From: an uncultured Bacteroidales bacterium
Lineage (GTDB): Bacteria > Bacteroidota > Bacteroidia > Bacteroidales > P3
Assembly (NCBI GenBank): GCA_947176875.1
Contig: CAMWSI010000017.1
Location: forward strand, 1 to 10,373
Length of the DNA: 10,373 nucleotides
Direction: 5' to 3'
Position 1 is the stretch's first letter; each line of letters starts with the position of its first letter. The notes beneath the pieces were generated by a model. The model did no database searches. It had not been told where the DNA came from and saw only the letters and a program-made list of their open reading frames with translations. The position numbers and the translations under genes are program-made. Positions 2,830 to 10,373 of the stretch are shown here, piece after piece.

Positions 2830-4128
2830 TCAATGTCTCCAATGGGCTTTAAGAGGATTAAGAATACGCTCTAAAAGACTACGATTTACAGACAGTATTT
2901 CGGCTATTCCCGACATCTCCGGCAAGACCTCCAAGTGCTTTCCATAATTAGTTTCTAAACAATCAGGCAAATCAAATTCCGCCACCGTACATATCTTATC
3001 CCCATCTTGCTCTGGCAACAACAAGATACGATCGACTTTTGCCTTTACCTTACCATACTCCATATAAGGGTAGGCATCAAACTTAATGTATATATCTTGT
3101 CCGAGCATCACGTTACCTAACACTTGTGACGGCAACCTTATCCGACCGACCATCTGCCTCTCCCCCTCCGTTCTTATCCTCAACAATACCATCCCCGCTG
3201 TCACTCGCTGGTTTACTCGCCAATATTCAGTTGTTTCCACTACTCCAGATACTGGACTGATATACATATAATTTTGTCGCCATGTATCTACCCGTGAAAG
3301 AAATTCCCAATAGGCATCCGTTAAAGCCCTAAATAAAACTTGCCGTCGCCCCCACTCTTCTTTTTTTATCCTCCATCTCTTCTGCTCCAATTGAGCCACT
3401 TCCAAACGAGTATAATTTTCAGATATCAACAACTTAGCATGACTTTTCCTCAACTGCATAATCGCATCATGATGATTTCCATACTCTGCCAACGAAATAA
3501 TTTTCCCCGCATACAATGCAGAATCCGTAATGAATAATTTTTCCTGCAACTGATTCTCTGAAAAACCGACCTGAGCCTTCATTTGTTCAAGAACTTGATT
3601 CTGTATCACTTCTTGTTTACCCACTGCAGCAATTATTTTGGTATAACAATCATCTGTATCAAAACTGATATAATCTTCCACCGCCTTTACAAAAGCATCG
3701 TATATAGGCTGCAACGTTCCCAATTCCAAATCCTTCGGATAGGACGAAGTCGGCAAACTATCTGTCTCCATCCTACAAAAACGTCCATAAGTCGCCACGT
3801 ATATTCGCGCGGTCTCCACATCGACATACCGTATTGGACTTCCTTGCACAAACAAGACACTGCCGGCCTCCACTGTATCTCCATTTGCCACGAACGAAGT
3901 ATCTATCCAACCCGACTCACGCGCATTAAGACATATCGGCATATTTCCAGTTTCCACCACACTATTCAAAACCACCTTATCCGGATATTTGAAATAAGCA
4001 CTACCTGCTACCAACGCCATAACGGCACCGCACACTATTGCAATACCCCATCGTACAATCCATCGGGGTGGACGACCGAATATTTCTTGTACCAGCGGAC
4101 TCTGCAACTCCAATGGACGAGTCGTCAT
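2830..4128 (-). CDS. HlyD-family periplasmic adaptor (membrane fusion protein) of the RiPP exporter
   Basis: Adaptor of a type I-like export system: anchored in the inner membrane by one helix, it spans the periplasm and links the ABC transporter to an outer-membrane channel. With the ATG at 4128 it has 432 residues. A short cytoplasmic tail (LELQSPLVQEIFG) precedes one membrane segment at about 24-45. The first half of the lipoyl-like domain follows (about 62-96, with GDTVEAGSVLF). A long helical, coiled-coil-prone section rich in Gln, Glu and Lys occupies about 170-280, the second lipoyl half lies at about 288-319 (YISPVSGVV), and a beta-barrel section ends the protein. A GTG start at 4191 would add 21 residues, has AAAAAGGG about 9 bases upstream and lies only 15 bases from the preceding stop. 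I prefer 4128 because the extension does not look like this family's N-terminus. No TolC-type partner is encoded nearby. AT-rich like the exporter. Confidence 0.87.
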   Translation of the reverse strand: MTTRPLELQSPLVQEIFGRPPRWIVRWGIAIVCGAVMALVAGSAYFKYPDKVVLNSVVETGNMPICLNARESGWIDTSFVANGDTVEAGSVLFVQGSPIRYVDVETARIYVATYGRFCRMETDSLPTSSYPKDLELGTLQPIYDAFVKAVEDYISFDTDDCYTKIIAAVGKQEVIQNQVLEQMKAQVGFSENQLQEKLFITDSALYAGKIISLAEYGNHHDAIMQLRKSHAKLLISENYTRLEVAQLEQKRWRIKKEEWGRRQVLFRALTDAYWEFLSRVDTWRQNYMYISPVSGVVETTEYWRVNQRVTAGMVLLRIRTEGERQMVGRIRLPSQVLGNVMLGQDIYIKFDAYPYMEYGKVKAKVDRILLLPEQDGDKICTVAEFDLPDCLETNYGKHLEVLPEMSGIAEILSVNRSLLERILNPLKAHWRH

Positions 4129-4206
4129 ATCCCTTTCTTGGTCTCTACATTTTGGGCTTATCCCCGTATTCTTTTCTCCGTATTCGTCCACCTGTCTTGC
4201 CCTTTT

Positions 4207-6432
4207 TTAATTTCCCAATTCCAATTGATTCTTAACTAACTCATAGTAAGAGCCTCTCTGCGACACCAACTCTGCGTGTTTCCCCCGTTCCTCTATCTTT
4301 CCATCTTTCAGTACAACAATTTGGTCGGCTTCTTTCACTGTACTCAGTCGATGCGCCACAACCACCACGGTCTTCCCGTTGAAAAACTCCCTCAAATTTT
4401 CCATAATCACTTTTTCATTGTTCGCATCTAAAGAATTCGTCGCTTCATCAAAAAAAATATACTTCGGATCCTTGTATATTGTACGTGCAATCAATATCCG
4501 TTGTTTCTGGCCTTGGCTTAAACCATTCCCATCTTCTCCTATCTTTGTATTGTATCCCAACGGCAAGCCATCTATCAAATCTTCAAGATTGGCCACTTTC
4601 ACCGCATGCCGCAAACGAGTTTCATTCACAATCTCGTCTCCCATCGCAATATTGTTGGCAATCGTATCAGAGAATATTACACCATCCTGCATAACAGCAC
4701 CACAATTAGCCCTCCACAAATGCGTGTTTACATTGTCTAAACGACAGTTTCCGACCTTTACCACACCTTCCCCTGGCGGATAAAACCCTAACAGCAACTT
4801 CACTAAAGTCGTCTTTCCACTCCCACTCATTCCTACGATTGCCGTTGTCTTCCCATAGGGTATATGTAAGTCAATATCATTCAACACCCATGGATTCTCC
4901 GAACCACCATAACGAAATTTAATTGATTCCAATCTCAACGAAGCTTTCTCTTGCAAATATCCCATCGCTTGTTCATTCGCCATCTCCTCATCATTCCTAT
5001 CCTGTATCTCTCCCAAACGTTCCAAACTGATTTTGGCATCCTGAGCTGACTGAATAAAATCAATCAGCATCACTATCGGACTATTCAACTGTCCTATAAT
5101 ATATTGAACGGCCATCATCATGCCTAACGTCATCTCCCCCCCGATTACCGCACGAGCAGACAAAAACGACACGACTATATTCTTCAATTGATTGAGAAAC
5201 GCACCTCCAGCCTGCTGATACTGACTTAATGCCAGCCCTTGTACACTGATTTTGAATAAACGAGCCTGAATTATTTCCCATCCCCAACGCTTCTGCCGCT
5301 CACAATTTTGCAATTTAATCTCCTGCATAGCAGATACCATCTCGTATAAATTACTCTTCTCTATAGCGGCCTCTGAAAAACGCTTGTAGTCTAATTCCCG
5401 ACGTTTTTTCAGAAACGCCACGACCCACAATACATACAAGATACTTCCCCCAAAAAACACCGTAAATATCAATCCATCGTAAACAGCCAATACTATTAAA
5501 AAGACAATTAATGAAATAAAAGAAAAAAAAGTCTGTAAAGTCTCCTGTGTCAGAAAACTCTGCACCCGTGAATTATCCTGAATTCTTTGAAGTAAATCTC
5601 CAATCAGTCTGGTATCAAAAAAACGAATTGGCAGTTTCATCAATTTTGTCAAAAAATCCGATATCATAACTACATTGACCCGAGCAGTGATATGTAGCAA
5701 TATCCATGACTGAATAAAATCTACCATTGCCTGACTAATGAACAACACCAATTGTGCTACCAAAATCAGCGTCACAAAATTCAGGTCCTGATTCCCTATT
5801 CCATAATCAACTATACTCTGCGTCAAGAAAGGGAAAATAAGTTGTAGAATTGCCCCCAAAAGTACACCGAGAAAAAGTTGAATTACCAAATGGCGATAAG
5901 GCCTCACATAACGCAACACAAACGAAATTTTCCTGCGTACAAATTTTTCTTCTTTCTGGGCATAAAACTCCGGTGTTGGTTCCAAAAGTAAAGCAATGCC
6001 AACTCCTTTTCCTCCCATTCGTGCACTCTCCCAGCCACATAAAAACTCGTTCACCGAAACTTTTGCCAAACCGAATGCCGGATCTGCTATGTATATCTGC
6101 CCTTTATATATTCCTTTCTGATAATGGCACTTTACTTTATATACCACGATAAAGTGATTCTGTCTCCAATGCACAATACAAGGCAACACAGCCTCTTTTA
6201 CTATCTGGTCGAGAGTAAGCCGCACCCCCATCGTTCGCATCCCCAATCGTTCAGCCGCCTCACTCAAGCTCAGCATTGAGACACCATCCCGTGTAGCATG
6301 ACAACTTTCCCGTAAACTTTTCACCAAATAATTTTTGCCATAATATTGACATATCATTGACAAACAGGCCACGCCACAATCCATCGCATCTGGCTGACGC
6401 ACGAATTGGAAGCGTTTTCTCATGATTCTCAT
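4207..6432 (-). CDS. C39 peptidase-containing ABC transporter that cleaves and exports double-glycine peptides
   Basis: Bifunctional 741-residue inner-membrane exporter that cuts the leader after Gly-Gly and transports the released core with ATP. The N-terminal C39 cysteine-protease domain (1 to about 150) has the catalytic triad C19 (in DCGVACLSM), H93 (NHFIVV) and D117 (ADPAFG), with Q13 as the oxyanion residue, so it should be active. A six-helix ABC transmembrane domain covers about 170-465. The nucleotide-binding domain has Walker A GMSGSGKTT (534-542), Q-loop Q582, signature LSQGQ (638-642), Walker B YIFFDEATNSLD (658-669) and switch H694; all are intact. Length and order are typical of peptidase-containing ABC transporters such as LagD/ComA and those of lantibiotic or sactipeptide clusters. 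It starts 52 bases after the maturase stop; a second ATG three codons in (6423) is possible. Its obvious substrate is the GG-leader peptide encoded upstream. Confidence 0.96.
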   Translation of the reverse strand: MRIMRKRFQFVRQPDAMDCGVACLSMICQYYGKNYLVKSLRESCHATRDGVSMLSLSEAAERLGMRTMGVRLTLDQIVKEAVLPCIVHWRQNHFIVVYKVKCHYQKGIYKGQIYIADPAFGLAKVSVNEFLCGWESARMGGKGVGIALLLEPTPEFYAQKEEKFVRRKISFVLRYVRPYRHLVIQLFLGVLLGAILQLIFPFLTQSIVDYGIGNQDLNFVTLILVAQLVLFISQAMVDFIQSWILLHITARVNVVMISDFLTKLMKLPIRFFDTRLIGDLLQRIQDNSRVQSFLTQETLQTFFSFISLIVFLIVLAVYDGLIFTVFFGGSILYVLWVVAFLKKRRELDYKRFSEAAIEKSNLYEMVSAMQEIKLQNCERQKRWGWEIIQARLFKISVQGLALSQYQQAGGAFLNQLKNIVVSFLSARAVIGGEMTLGMMMAVQYIIGQLNSPIVMLIDFIQSAQDAKISLERLGEIQDRNDEEMANEQAMGYLQEKASLRLESIKFRYGGSENPWVLNDIDLHIPYGKTTAIVGMSGSGKTTLVKLLLGFYPPGEGVVKVGNCRLDNVNTHLWRANCGAVMQDGVIFSDTIANNIAMGDEIVNETRLRHAVKVANLEDLIDGLPLGYNTKIGEDGNGLSQGQKQRILIARTIYKDPKYIFFDEATNSLDANNEKVIMENLREFFNGKTVVVVAHRLSTVKEADQIVVLKDGKIEERGKHAELVSQRGSYYELVKNQLELGN

Positions 6433-6484
6433 GACTCACATGATCTCTAAATCCACTACCAATATGATAAAATCCCCCTATGCT

Positions 6485-7864
6485 CTATTTATAATAGATT
6501 TCATTCTTCAATGGCAACGCATCCGGACAACGCGGATCGGCCTGATCCCACTGTTCCATACCATACGCTTGCAATATCATTTTCCAACAAACACCTTTAT
6601 GATGTCGACACTCCTTAAAATCATGACAAAGTTTGCACGGACTGCTTTCACTAATAACATTTTGTTGAATATAGAACAAGTCCAATGCTTTTTTGCCATT
6701 CCATATTTCCGCAAGCGTGTTTTCCCGCAAATCTCCGATAAGAAACTGCGGATGCCAATACAACTCCTCACATATCGTCACTTTTCCATCGGGTAGCACT
6801 ATCAATGCCTGTTCATTCCCCGTACAAATTGCACGCTCCTGAAAATCAACCTTTTTATTCACCCCACAAAATAAAGATTCCGACATCGGATTCGGACTTT
6901 TGAAATTAATGGAGGGAAACGTATCTTTTAACGTATCTATATACAAGGCTATAGAATGCAGGTCTTCTGCTCTCGCTTTAATCGCTCGATAATGTTCCGG
7001 AGTCTTATAAAGAGAATAACCCGCTTCGCTACTCCTGATATTTCGAATATGCTTAAACGAAGTTAAAAAAGAAAACAACGGCTTGACTTCCTTCTCCAAA
7101 TGGGAATTGTACTTGGTTAAAATAGTATTCGTCTGCCAATGAAACCGCATTTCATCTAACAATTTCATCGTATGTCGGATTTTTTCAAAATAATCCTTAT
7201 CGACTTTCAACACAGAACTCAATGTATCCGGATTAATCGAATCAATGGAAATTTGAATCTGAGTAATTCCTATTTTATGCAAAAATTCCAGCATCTCATA
7301 CTCTACCGGATATTTCGTAGAAATAAGCGGATAATATCCACATCGGACCATTTCTTGTAAAATTTCCTTAATATCCGGATGTAATAACACTTCCCCGCCA
7401 TTAATACTCACATCTTTTACCCCTATCTGTTTCATCTGACGGATAACATCCAATATTTCCTGCGTGGAAAGATTCGTTTCCACATGATTACGCCTATCTG
7501 CATAACAATATACGCAATCTGTATAACACCGCATAGTCAGTTCAAAAATAGCCACTACGGGTCCATGATTACGCCGAAAACTAAAATCCGCTTTCCCTGA
7601 CATCGGAAAATCTTCCATCTTATAATACTCTACCCGTTCATAATCACCTTTTTGTATCAACATATTTTCCAATGCGAGAAAACATTTGGATTCGTCTTCA
7701 GAATTTATCCACTCACGATTTTCTATATATCGATCCAGAATTTCTTGCAAATCATTTCGAGACAACTCGAAACGATTTTCCAAAACTGACAGACACTCAG
7801 TCATGGTTCGTTTTCCATCGAAAACTGATAACATCTGTGCCACATAAGGATGAATGTTTATCAA
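6485..7864 (-). CDS. Radical SAM/SPASM peptide maturase with PqqD-like leader-binding region (N-terminus frame-disrupted)
   Basis: Predicted RiPP-modifying iron-sulfur enzyme; the intact frame gives 459 residues. Residues 1 to about 60 (INIHPYVAQMLSVFDGKRT onward) resemble the helical half of a PqqD-like RiPP recognition element, which binds leader peptides. The radical SAM core has the 4Fe-4S motif CYTDCVYC (C113, C117, C120) and the SAM-binding NGGE motif (155-158). The C-terminal SPASM region carries C347, C365, C410, C413, C419, C426 and C446, enough for two auxiliary clusters. Such enzymes make thioether or other cross-links in cysteine-rich precursors; the actual chemistry cannot be assigned. 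The frame is open only down to a TAG at 7905-7903 and has no in-frame ATG before 7834; its first usable codon is TTG at 7864. A convincing missing N-terminus lies in another frame, so this may be a frameshifted gene, or its sequence may contain an error. It lies downstream of the precursor and upstream of the exporter. Confidence 0.93.
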   Translation of the reverse strand: MINIHPYVAQMLSVFDGKRTMTECLSVLENRFELSRNDLQEILDRYIENREWINSEDESKCFLALENMLIQKGDYERVEYYKMEDFPMSGKADFSFRRNHGPVVAIFELTMRCYTDCVYCYADRRNHVETNLSTQEILDVIRQMKQIGVKDVSINGGEVLLHPDIKEILQEMVRCGYYPLISTKYPVEYEMLEFLHKIGITQIQISIDSINPDTLSSVLKVDKDYFEKIRHTMKLLDEMRFHWQTNTILTKYNSHLEKEVKPLFSFLTSFKHIRNIRSSEAGYSLYKTPEHYRAIKARAEDLHSIALYIDTLKDTFPSINFKSPNPMSESLFCGVNKKVDFQERAICTGNEQALIVLPDGKVTICEELYWHPQFLIGDLRENTLAEIWNGKKALDLFYIQQNVISESSPCKLCHDFKECRHHKGVCWKMILQAYGMEQWDQADPRCPDALPLKNEIYYK

Positions 7865-7986
7865 TGTATCGGCCGTATAGTAAATATCATCATAAATTGG
7901 TTGCTATATGCGCCTATTTGACTTCTATCCTGATCATGATGTAAAAAATAGCAAGGATTCAAGATATAAACAGATTCTTTTTCCAT
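7861..7986 (-). pseudogene. Displaced N-terminal segment of the radical SAM maturase (41-codon frame)
   Basis: An ATG at 7986 opens a 41-residue frame beginning MEKESVYILNPCYFLHHDQD and ending in a TGA at 7863-7861. Residues 1-31 look like the two or three beta strands expected ahead of the helical half of a PqqD-like domain. The maturase frame, read just upstream of its TTG, gives YDDIYYTADT, a natural continuation. The frames differ by one base: reading TTTT instead of TTT at 7896-7894 would give NQF-YDDIYY and a single 500-residue protein starting at 7986. The TGA overlaps the TTG at 7864 (TTGA), so re-initiation or coupling is conceivable. No classical slippery heptamer is present. The most likely explanations are a one-base deletion or a sequencing error. 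Without the repair, the sheet half of the leader-binding domain would be lost. Confidence 0.75.
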
Positions 7987-8025
7987 ATCTCATTATTTTT
8001 AATATGTTTCTAATATTTTTTGAAG

Positions 8026-8053
8026 AAGGGTGCCACCTTAAGGCGACACCCTT
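8026..8053 (-). promoter_or_regulatory. Hairpin between precursor and maturase genes (attenuator or mRNA-stability element)
   Basis: On the minus strand AAGGGTGTCGCC, loop TTAA, and GGTGGCACCCTT form a continuous 12-pair stem, including one U-G and one G-U wobble. On the plus-strand transcript those two positions would be A/C mismatches, so the structure suits the minus-strand mRNA. It begins seven bases after the precursor stop codon. The sequence after it is CTTCAAAAAA, not a run of U, so it is not a textbook intrinsic terminator. It could allow partial read-through or protect the upstream precursor message, giving more precursor than enzyme. The fold is seen directly; the function is inferred. 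Confidence 0.65.
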
Positions 8054-8059
8054 TCATAA

Positions 8060-8239
8060 TCATTTAGAAGAAGCTGTACAGGTAGACCCATTCAACTGTG
8101 TTCTCTGGCAACCTGGCGAACACTTCAACATACAACTGGTATCACACCCTCTCGTGTCGAGATCGTTTCCAGTTGAAATTCCCCCAAGAACTTTTTTGAG
8201 TTCCTCCGGTGTCATGGTGTTTTTCATTTCTTTTTCCAT
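8060..8239 (-). CDS. Double-glycine-leader, cysteine-rich RiPP precursor peptide
   Basis: This 59-residue peptide is the likely substrate of the module. Residues 1-20 form a charged leader ending TPEELKKVLGG, the consensus site for C39 peptidases, with cleavage predicted after G20. The 39-residue core begins ISTGNDLDTRG and holds cysteines at 32, 36, 40, 44 and 54, giving spacing C-X3-C-X3-C-X3-C-X9-C. The tail is short and rich in Ser and Thr (STCTASSK). The likely start is the ATG at 8239, with A-rich sequence upstream; in-frame ATGs at 8227 and 8215 are alternatives that would still leave the GG site. The gene lies 69 bases after the barrel-protein stop and is followed by a hairpin, then the maturase and exporter genes. 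Leader, core composition and position together make the call strong. The mature product could be a sactipeptide/ranthipeptide-like thioether peptide, or a disulfide-bonded one. I do not recognise the family. Confidence 0.88.
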   Translation of the reverse strand: MEKEMKNTMTPEELKKVLGGISTGNDLDTRGCDTSCMLKCSPGCQRTQLNGSTCTASSK

Positions 8240-8308
8240 AACGTTTAATTTTTTTGTTTGTCCTACTCTATTATCCCTTTTCGGTTCCGGGTTTTATATT
8301 GATTGTAT

Positions 8309-10373
8309 TCAATCGGCTATGCGTTGCACGGTCTGCACTGTCCTAACGCCCTGCGGATTGCGGGAAAACCGCCACCGCACGGTCAGATAAAGGCTCTGCA
8401 CCACCGGATTATAATAACGGACCATCGCTTTATAAGCCCCATCCAGTTCCCGGGTCTTCACACATATGTCCCAAGCCCGGAAGTAACCGGCCACACTCAG
8501 ATACAGTTTCCCGTCGAAAAAAGTCTTGTATATGGAAAGGCTGCCCGTCAGATCGTGGTTCGAATATTCGTCGATAAGCAATACCGGCGTGTTGTAGAAA
8601 AGGTTTAGATCAATTCCCATACTGGGCATGACCTGAAAATTCAAATTCACAGAAACCATGCCGATCACAGCTTTATGGCGATAGTTGCCCGTGGCATCGC
8701 GGTAAGACTGATCCATATACAAAGCGCGGCCCTCCAAGCCCATGCACAGCCATCGCGCCACTTCCTTCTCCCAATTCACCGACAACTCGTGTCCGTATTC
8801 CCAGTTTCCGTTTTGCGGATGTTGCCAGCTGATGCCCGTGGCCGGGTCGTAGGACGTGATGTTGTAAATAGCCCCCTTGGCGGCGCTGAAGCTATAGGCA
8901 AACCGCCAGTCCCCACGCAACATATAAGTCAACTGCCCCCTGTAGCCGTCGGGCAGGCGGAGGGCTTCGTTGCCCACCATGTAGGAGGTCGCCGACAGCC
9001 TGACCAGACGGGGCGACAGTTGCCGGTAGGTCGGCATCCTCCCCGAATAACGGCTTAGGTCCAGACTCAGGCTCGTCCCCATCCGGGCGTTGAAATCATA
9101 TCCGAAACTGAAGTTGGCGAATGGCTGAACATAATGCCGTCTCGAAAAGAGGTCGTCCCTGGCGTCTTTGGCACAAATACCGTCCCACTGCACACTCGCG
9201 CCCACCGAATAGGAGAACTTGCCGTAGCGGTCACGGTATATCGCGTAAGCCGTAGCATGGTTCGTCTCAATGCCGTAACACTCGCCCCGCACCTGGTCGT
9301 CCTGCCACTCCCCGTCCCGCACCACCTCCGTACGGAAGGCGTCCGACGCGAAGTTGCCGTCGTAGGTCAAGCCCACATCCAAGCCGCGCCCCGGACGAAA
9401 CCCGTGGTGGTAATCCAAACGGACCGTCGCGTTGTTTTCCGTCAAGGGCGCGTCCTGCCGATAAACTTCCTCGCCCAATAAGACCGCCTCTTCCGCCCCT
9501 ACAGCCGCCGCGCCCAACCATGCCGTCCGGTAGCGCGTGTTCCGGCGCACCGCGTTGTACAGATAGTCGGCCTTGACGGAGAGACGCGAGCCTAAGGTAT
9601 CAAAAGTCCGGACAAAATCCACCGCCACCAACGAACTCAGCGTGTTGGCGTTTTCATCCGAGGAATAAACGGAACGATCATAGCCCAAGCCCGTCGGATT
9701 GTGCCCCGGCAGCGTTTCCGGTGTGGAAACGGAACGCACTTTGTTTTTAGAGGTATTGTAAAAGACCGCCCCGACTAAGCCGACGCTCGTCTGCGCATTG
9801 ATATCATAGACCATGCTCAGATAATCCTTAAACACATGGTAACGGAGCATAGAATGCCGCTCCGTTTCCAAACGGTACGCTTCCGCGGAATACGTGGCGT
9901 CCTCGTATTCGATGGCATCGCCCGTATGATGCCGGTAACTCGCATCGTTCGTCAGACTGAATTTCCCTTTCCGGAAACTGAACGGCGCCACAAAACTGCC
10001 GCCATACATATCTACTTTACGGTCAGGCGTATAATACGGATTCAGTATCAGATCCAACGAATAGCCTTCTTTCCGTTTGGTACAGATACGGACAATCCCG
10101 CCCTTCAAGGCGGACGAATGGGCGCTGCCCGCCTGGTTCCGCACCTCCACGTCCTCAATATCCTCCCCGTTCAACCACCGTAGCCGCTCCCTGTCTTTCA
10201 ACTCCCTGCCGTCCAGATAGACGACCGACACTTCCCGGCCGTCCAGCAGCAATTTTCCATCCTTATACGTCAGACCCGGTAAAAAATTCAGGACTTCGCT
10301 CACAGTCCGGTTCCGTACCATCTCCGCCTCGGACAAATTGACCGTATAGCCCCCCGCCGTGTAACGCAACCGG
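8309..10373 (-). CDS. TonB-dependent-receptor-like outer-membrane beta-barrel protein, 5' end missing
   Basis: The frame is open to the window edge, giving about 688 residues; the signal peptide and any N-terminal carboxypeptidase-regulatory-like domain would lie outside. Counting from the TTG at 10369, which is internal rather than a start, residues about 20-98 form a plug domain: EVLNFLPGL, then GKLLLDGREV, VVYLDGREL, GEDIEDVEV and the closing GGIVRICTKR. The rest alternates aromatic and polar residues as in transmembrane beta strands. It ends with the barrel-like strand LYLTVRWRF followed by a short tail. This resembles the Bacteroidota outer-membrane barrel family related to TonB receptors (OMP_b-brl type). 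Its ligand is unknown. It shares the direction of the RiPP genes and ends 69 bases before the precursor with no obvious terminator between, so co-transcription is possible. It is GC-rich like gpsA and unlike the AT-rich RiPP genes, so it may instead be an older neighbour. Confidence 0.85.
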   Translation of the reverse strand, partial: RLRYTAGGYTVNLSEAEMVRNRTVSEVLNFLPGLTYKDGKLLLDGREVSVVYLDGRELKDRERLRWLNGEDIEDVEVRNQAGSAHSSALKGGIVRICTKRKEGYSLDLILNPYYTPDRKVDMYGGSFVAPFSFRKGKFSLTNDASYRHHTGDAIEYEDATYSAEAYRLETERHSMLRYHVFKDYLSMVYDINAQTSVGLVGAVFYNTSKNKVRSVSTPETLPGHNPTGLGYDRSVYSSDENANTLSSLVAVDFVRTFDTLGSRLSVKADYLYNAVRRNTRYRTAWLGAAAVGAEEAVLLGEEVYRQDAPLTENNATVRLDYHHGFRPGRGLDVGLTYDGNFASDAFRTEVVRDGEWQDDQVRGECYGIETNHATAYAIYRDRYGKFSYSVGASVQWDGICAKDARDDLFSRRHYVQPFANFSFGYDFNARMGTSLSLDLSRYSGRMPTYRQLSPRLVRLSATSYMVGNEALRLPDGYRGQLTYMLRGDWRFAYSFSAAKGAIYNITSYDPATGISWQHPQNGNWEYGHELSVNWEKEVARWLCMGLEGRALYMDQSYRDATGNYRHKAVIGMVSVNLNFQVMPSMGIDLNLFYNTPVLLIDEYSNHDLTGSLSIYKTFFDGKLYLSVAGYFRAWDICVKTRELDGAYKAMVRYYNPVVQSLYLTVRWRFSRNPQGVRTVQTVQRIAD

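Follow-up and report, generated by a model that had tools for sequence, protein, structure and literature searches.

A candidate GG-leader radical SAM peptide cassette with a linked importer-fold gene in an uncultured Bacteroidales bacterium

What does a compact run of genes in an uncultured Bacteroidales bacterium of family P3 make, and is its product released to kill neighbours or to be taken up again? The genes lie on contig CAMWSI010000017.1 of GCA_947176875.1, a metagenome-assembled genome (MAG) that is 61% complete and split into 279 contigs; the window, meaning the whole stretch analysed here, is this entire contig of 10,373 nucleotides (nt). A first reading of the letters alone (hereafter the original prediction) had placed at 2830-8239 a module for a ribosomally synthesized and post-translationally modified peptide (RiPP), consisting of a precursor with a double-glycine (GG) leader, a radical S-adenosylmethionine (SAM)/SPASM maturase, an exporter joining a C39 peptidase to an ATP-binding cassette (C39-ABC), and an HlyD adaptor. 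These four genes are present, but the interval is too short, since the adjoining outer-membrane barrel gene belongs to the module, which extends to 10372. We consider it likely that the window carries an acquired five-gene RiPP cassette, made up of barrel, precursor, maturase, exporter and adaptor, that acts along the lines proposed below.

Five genes in one order in two genera

All five genes are read from the minus strand, in the transcription order barrel gene, precursor, maturase, exporter and adaptor, followed by genes for an M49 peptidase and GpsA, both ordinary chromosomal genes. As predicted, the gaps between the four genes originally named are short (15 nt between adaptor and exporter, 52 nt between exporter and maturase, and 73 nt from the precursor stop to the N-terminal maturase frame). 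The precursor (8060-8239) is a peptide of 59 amino acids (aa), with a leader up to GG at 8239-8180 and a core at 8179-8063 that carries five cysteines, four of them at every fourth residue (32, 36, 40 and 44) and the last at 54. The main frame of the maturase (6485-7864, 459 aa from a TTG) contains the radical SAM and SPASM domains (PF04055, E 4e-19; PF13186, E 7e-11) and a CYTDCVYC motif; a maturase with CX3CX2C and a SPASM domain adjoining a short leader-core peptide is what marks a radical SAM RiPP cassette. The exporter (4207-6432, 741 aa) matches PF03412 (E 3e-32), PF00664 and PF00005. Its translation shows ATPase motifs together with the cysteine of DCGVAC, the histidine of QNHF and the aspartate of ADPAFG, which we take to be the C39 catalytic triad. 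By its domain content (C39 peptidase, membrane and ATPase domains, with a GG substrate) it is a predicted peptidase-containing ABC transporter (PCAT). The adaptor (2830-4191, a 453-aa frame from a GTG, whose true start may be internal) matches PF13437 (E 5e-6). The peptide, enzyme, exporter and adaptor named in the original prediction are all borne out by these features.

The cassette occurs in identical order on a 49 kb contig of a genome from another genus of the same family (G049). The G049 peptide, in the same place and likewise of 59 residues, is 62% identical to that of the window, with no loss of GG or of any of the five cysteines; identity is 75% for the exporter, 46% for the HlyD protein and 63% for the barrel protein (against an 820-aa G049 gene in the same place). 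The ratio of nonsynonymous to synonymous change (pN/pS) was lowest in the exporter (0.17) and the maturase (0.20), with 0.29 in the barrel protein and 0.40 and 0.42 in the peptide and HlyD, respectively; the values are rough, since synonymous change is close to saturation. The shared order, the conserved peptide and its pN/pS go beyond what chance would give.

Comparison with closer relatives of the host indicates how the cassette came to this site. Positions 1-2570 of the window align at 86% to three genomes of the same genus (to one of them only up to 2556), and all three carry the same 336-residue gene upstream of the M49 peptidase gene; a search of the aligned stretch found cassette genes at this site in none of the three. 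The cassette was therefore probably acquired, and insertion fits the compared sequences best. In the window's genome, a fragment covering 93 residues of the 336-residue gene sits at the end of a contig. G+C content is 37-43% from precursor to HlyD, 55-58% in the M49 and GpsA genes and 56% in the barrel gene. As a separate observation, the exporter and adaptor genes of G049 have 62-65% G+C and its maturase gene 39% (L031:6256-11724), a mosaic absent from the window copy; upstream of the G049 barrel gene, on the opposite strand, lies a 531-aa frame that is transposase-like by eye alone (L031:14900-16495).

The maturase gene is not continuous in the window. Its start is missing from the 459-aa frame, and about 40 residues that match the start of the G049 protein are found in another frame (7986-7861, 41 aa). 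The G049 copy is intact, with 500 residues, and most of 33 aligned sequences are about as long; the seven cysteines of the SPASM part are invariant across the 33. A protein-database entry, P0002, is called from a later methionine and is identical to the C-terminal 449 residues of the G049 protein. In a model of the intact G049 maturase (predicted local distance difference test, pLDDT, 94), the N-terminal domain has a strand-helix order that fits a PqqD-like domain, an identity we infer, and strands 1-3 lie within residues 6-26. By itself the main frame in the window therefore lacks the beginning of the presumed leader-binding domain, about half of which the break would remove. The PqqD-like N-terminus claimed earlier is, as worded, not right for the window copy, and the frame break had been missed. 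The break is either a mutation or a sequence error, and unless it is the latter the window copy may be inactive. That the window holds a dead or artefactual copy, through a decaying maturase gene, a contig error or a chimera, strikes us as somewhat unlikely: besides the break, the abrupt shift in G+C at the edge of the cassette and the incomplete, fragmented MAG would fit such an origin, but the remaining maturase frame is open and constrained (pN/pS 0.20), and G049 has the same gene order on its long contig.

The peptide and its cysteine signature

Maturase relatives were looked for in several sets of genomes. Among 149 genomes, 98 gave radical SAM matches, mostly weak and covering part of the protein, and only G049 (73% identity) and G004 (35%) gave near full-length ones with E below 1e-80; 393 genomes drawn from the order yielded one maturase at 43% (E<=1e-100) and no closer ones. 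A scan of a named genome collection returned 203 stretches, 130 of them encoding maturase relatives, and the best 80 were kept. Unless stated otherwise, neighbours were counted over these 80 loci and the window (n=81), on the same strand and within 6 kb of the maturase; many contigs are short, which makes the counts lower bounds. A C39-ABC gene was found at 44 of the 81 loci (opposite strand, 1/81) and an HlyD-like frame at 17 (opposite strand, 0/81). In L038, L040, L048, L080, L091, L096 and L103 the C39-ABC gene is followed by a short HlyD-like frame (about 150-180 aa), perhaps a reduced adaptor. Four loci (L065, L085, L104 and L108) come from bins labelled Lachnospiraceae, Methanothrix or Alphaproteobacteria; the L065 maturase is identical to that of the Bacteroidales locus L064, so some of the four may be mis-binned.

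The exact precursor was found in two genomes. A protein-database search at E<=1 gave one match, identical to the G049 peptide; good scores among 190 genomes of the family were confined to the window and G049, with eight further, weak matches (E 0.016-0.093), and a search of 395 genomes taken from the class at E<=1e-4 found the window itself only. Conservation of the 59-residue frame, on which the original prediction had staked itself, thus extends to G049 and was found nowhere else.

The kind of peptide is more widely shared. At the 76 loci whose contigs run 500 nt or more upstream of the maturase, we searched that region with a strict pattern, which asks for a frame with an ATG start, a leader motif and GG followed by two or more cysteines. 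Such a frame was present on the same strand at 31 loci, compared with 0/76 on the opposite strand and 3/232 regions upstream of other genes. Inspected by eye, the 45 pattern-negative loci included several cysteine-rich peptides with AG, CG or NGA replacing GG, some GG peptides overlooked by the pattern, some loci with no such leader (L106, L110 and L113, from Paenibacillus), and some with nothing convincing. A short frame with C-x3-C-x3-C adjoined the maturase at 39/81 loci, against 1/81 on the opposite strand and 8/1034 control stretches. The commonest common target signature of the group is a cysteine at every fourth residue. The domains, the gene order of G049 and these peptide counts above controls together uphold the assignment as a GG-leader radical SAM RiPP cassette. 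The three Paenibacillus loci have two tandem cysteine-rich peptides with a different, non-GG leader.

Immediately 3' of the precursor gene lies a predicted hairpin (8021-8056, minus strand; z -4.4 over 77 nt and -5.5 over 65 nt). The G049 hairpin differs in sequence and has the same stem shape and similar strength. From the 31 strict-pattern loci we obtained 29 for a wider comparison (L031 replaced its duplicate L034, and L065, a copy of L064, and L076 were dropped); these count the window and G049 and include some close relatives. Over the 65 nt that follow the stop codon of the precursor, z against shuffles was below -2 at 21 of the 29 loci and below -4 at 19. The corresponding figures for z<-2 were 10/145 in random stretches and 27/233 after other genes (10 with z<-4), and where another gene followed 40-300 nt downstream they were 6/40 (2/40 with z<-4). 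Within 7800-8400 neither a sigma-70 promoter nor a terminator pattern was found, and an Rfam search of the window gave no match. The hairpin probably allows more peptide than enzyme to be made from one operon.

The outer-membrane barrel gene

The gene that the original prediction left out (8309-10372, minus strand, its N-terminus lost at the contig end) encodes a TonB-dependent-receptor-like outer-membrane barrel (PF14905, E 7.6e-41). A barrel gene accompanies the maturase at 45/81 loci and is on the opposite strand at 0/81, and 44 of the 45 aligned proteins match PF14905. Along the maturase tree, the side on which the barrel gene lies changes at least nine times among the 45 carriers within 3 kb, and its presence changes at least six times; the tree was a quick one with several weak forks, and 16 loci were uncounted for lack of room. 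At E<=1e-20 the gene occurs in 3 of 61 family genomes (the window's, G049 and G032), and it is absent at this threshold from the three same-genus genomes, one of which is 55% complete.

Such linkage makes it very unlikely that the barrel gene is a bystander beside the cassette. That reading could draw on the gene's absence from 20 of the 65 loci with sufficient room, those 20 having 3 kb or more to each side, on G032, which holds the barrel gene alone, and on the G+C of the window's barrel gene, which differs from that of the cassette. Against it, the gene is found on the strand of the maturase and never opposite it, the linkage survives at least nine changes of side, and two of the three family genomes with the gene are the cassette carriers. 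The 20 loci without it mean that the barrel gene is not essential to the group. In G032 the gene (L143:8558-11059) has an in-frame stop, is 87% identical to G049 at the DNA level across 2.5 kb, and is perhaps a relict.

A model of the G049 barrel (pLDDT 81; predicted template modelling score, pTM, 0.70) matches TonB-dependent importers and siderophore receptors, such as PfeA, FoxA, Cir and FecA, with TM-scores on the query of 0.40-0.50 among the matches listed, and the sequence profile of the G049 protein also matches PfeA, Cir and others. The plug domain is weak by Pfam (E 0.016; E<=0.001 in 12 of 45 members). By profile and modelled fold, with the G049 gene as query, the protein has a predicted plug-and-barrel importer fold, and a TolC-type fold was rejected on the same model. 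The original prediction saw no TolC; five other contigs of the window's genome carry TolC-family genes, with nine matches in all. Given the importer fold and these TolC genes, we read the barrel as a receptor or recapture protein, more likely to bind or take back the released peptide than to form its exit channel.

Other views are found in print. PMC8939145 predicts that the TonB-receptor-related proteins of graspetide clusters serve in export, and PMC10352776 notes that several RiPP clusters of Bacteroidales include an outer-membrane protein, discussing it alongside TolC and treating such clusters as bacteriocin candidates. A cassette whose product kills neighbours, with the barrel serving self-protection or forming part of the exit route, is accordingly a substantial possibility, if short of a probable one. 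No immunity gene was recognised in the domain searches of the window, as had been noted before, and the importer fold of the barrel, together with TolC genes elsewhere, speaks against the antimicrobial role. Export through a C39 protein after a GG leader is the usual bacteriocin route and counts in its favour.

Proposed pathway and place among known systems

In the pathway we favour, the PqqD-like domain at the N-terminus of the maturase would bind the leader, and the enzyme would act on the core cysteines found at every fourth position, most likely to make thioether links. By analogy with other members of the exporter family, the C39 domain would cut after GG, and the ABC-HlyD pair would export the core through a TolC-type protein encoded elsewhere. 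The hairpin would raise the yield of peptide over enzyme, and the barrel would bind or recapture the released peptide, which makes recapture a live alternative to killing. A bolder form of this idea, that the secreted every-fourth-cysteine peptide is recaptured through its own TonB-type receptor, as a metallophore or pheromone of ribosomal origin in a circuit that many Bacteroidota share, and is no bacteriocin, appears unlikely to us. The methanobactin-like recapture of a metallophore offers a comparison.

Several observations weigh against the favoured pathway. The maturase frame is broken in the window contig, and the exact precursor is known from two genomes only. The strict GG pattern failed at 45 of the 76 loci, and the exporter and HlyD-like counts stay at 44 and 17 of 81, short contigs counted. 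The barrel gene is missing from loci with room for it, stands in G032 without an adjoining cassette, and in the window differs in G+C from the remaining cassette. No terminator-type T run follows the hairpin. Finally, around L035, the nearest named maturase relative after G049 (41% identity), none of the partners (GG-cysteine peptide, exporter, adaptor, barrel gene) was found in the roughly 10 kb available to each side. Maturase relatives lacking a GG-leader peptide, which the original prediction had named as damaging to it, do therefore exist, beside the 31 loci that far exceed their controls.

The closest kind of system is the GG-leader radical SAM clusters of Bacteroidales (for example BGC1 and BGC2; Fernandez-Cantos et al. 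2023, PMC10352776). They share with the window a radical SAM enzyme as sole tailoring enzyme, a C39 exporter and, in most clusters, GG-motif precursors; an adaptor and an outer-membrane protein are further features common to BGC2 and the window cassette. Compared by description only, the every-fourth-cysteine signature and the importer fold are features of the window group. GG-samocin systems (TIGR04148, TIGR04149 and TIGR04150 in NCBIfam) are likewise from Bacteroidota and have a GG leader and a radical SAM maturase, but the window maturase and precursor match no such model at its cut-off: TIGR04148 (cut-off 300 bits) is not among the best 25 of 70 NCBIfam models for the maturase, the 25th of which scores 36.5 bits. 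Targets with CXXX repeats (TIGR04115/TIGR04117) also have a cysteine at every fourth residue; the window maturase, however, lies far below the TIGR04115 cut-off (350 bits), outside the best 25 of the 70 models. Of 38 hand-chosen precursors (window, G049 and 36 others), seven matched TIGR04149 at E<=0.01 and one matched TIGR04117 (E 0.0087); the window precursor matched neither. The family search proposed in the original prediction thus came back empty, with no NCBIfam model reaching its cut-off on the maturase or the peptide. G049 also carries, beside and separate from its cassette (L031:449-5811), a second RiPP set with a TIGR04148 maturase (475 bits), a TIGR04150-like pseudo-radical-SAM protein (169 bits, below the cut-off of 250), an S41 peptidase and an 82-aa GG cysteine peptide.

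The best PDB matches of the G049 maturase model were SuiB and SkfB, then PqqE, and in addition a sactipeptide thioether enzyme. The radical SAM-SPASM RiPP maturases SuiB, SkfB and CteB (entries 5wgg/5why, which we take to be CteB) resemble the modelled G049 protein in domain order and fold, yet are 12-18% identical and have other precursors and other hosts. An anti-phage role was rejected, as the PADLOC viperin match (best E 6e-18, in the radical SAM part) and the ABC ATPase matches reflect generic domain similarity.

The system is thus of an ordinary kind, a GG-leader radical SAM RiPP, and its family is new, uncatalogued, broad and little studied; among the papers listed in searches of open-licence PMC articles, none was seen to describe this maturase group, its cysteine spacing or its hairpin. 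The noteworthy point for the specialist is the linked importer-fold gene. A simple target signature and a linked receptor-like gene are common features of a broad maturase group, whose member in the window falls below the cut-off of every curated NCBIfam model, and this allows a direct test of whether RiPPs of Bacteroidota are released to kill or released for re-uptake.

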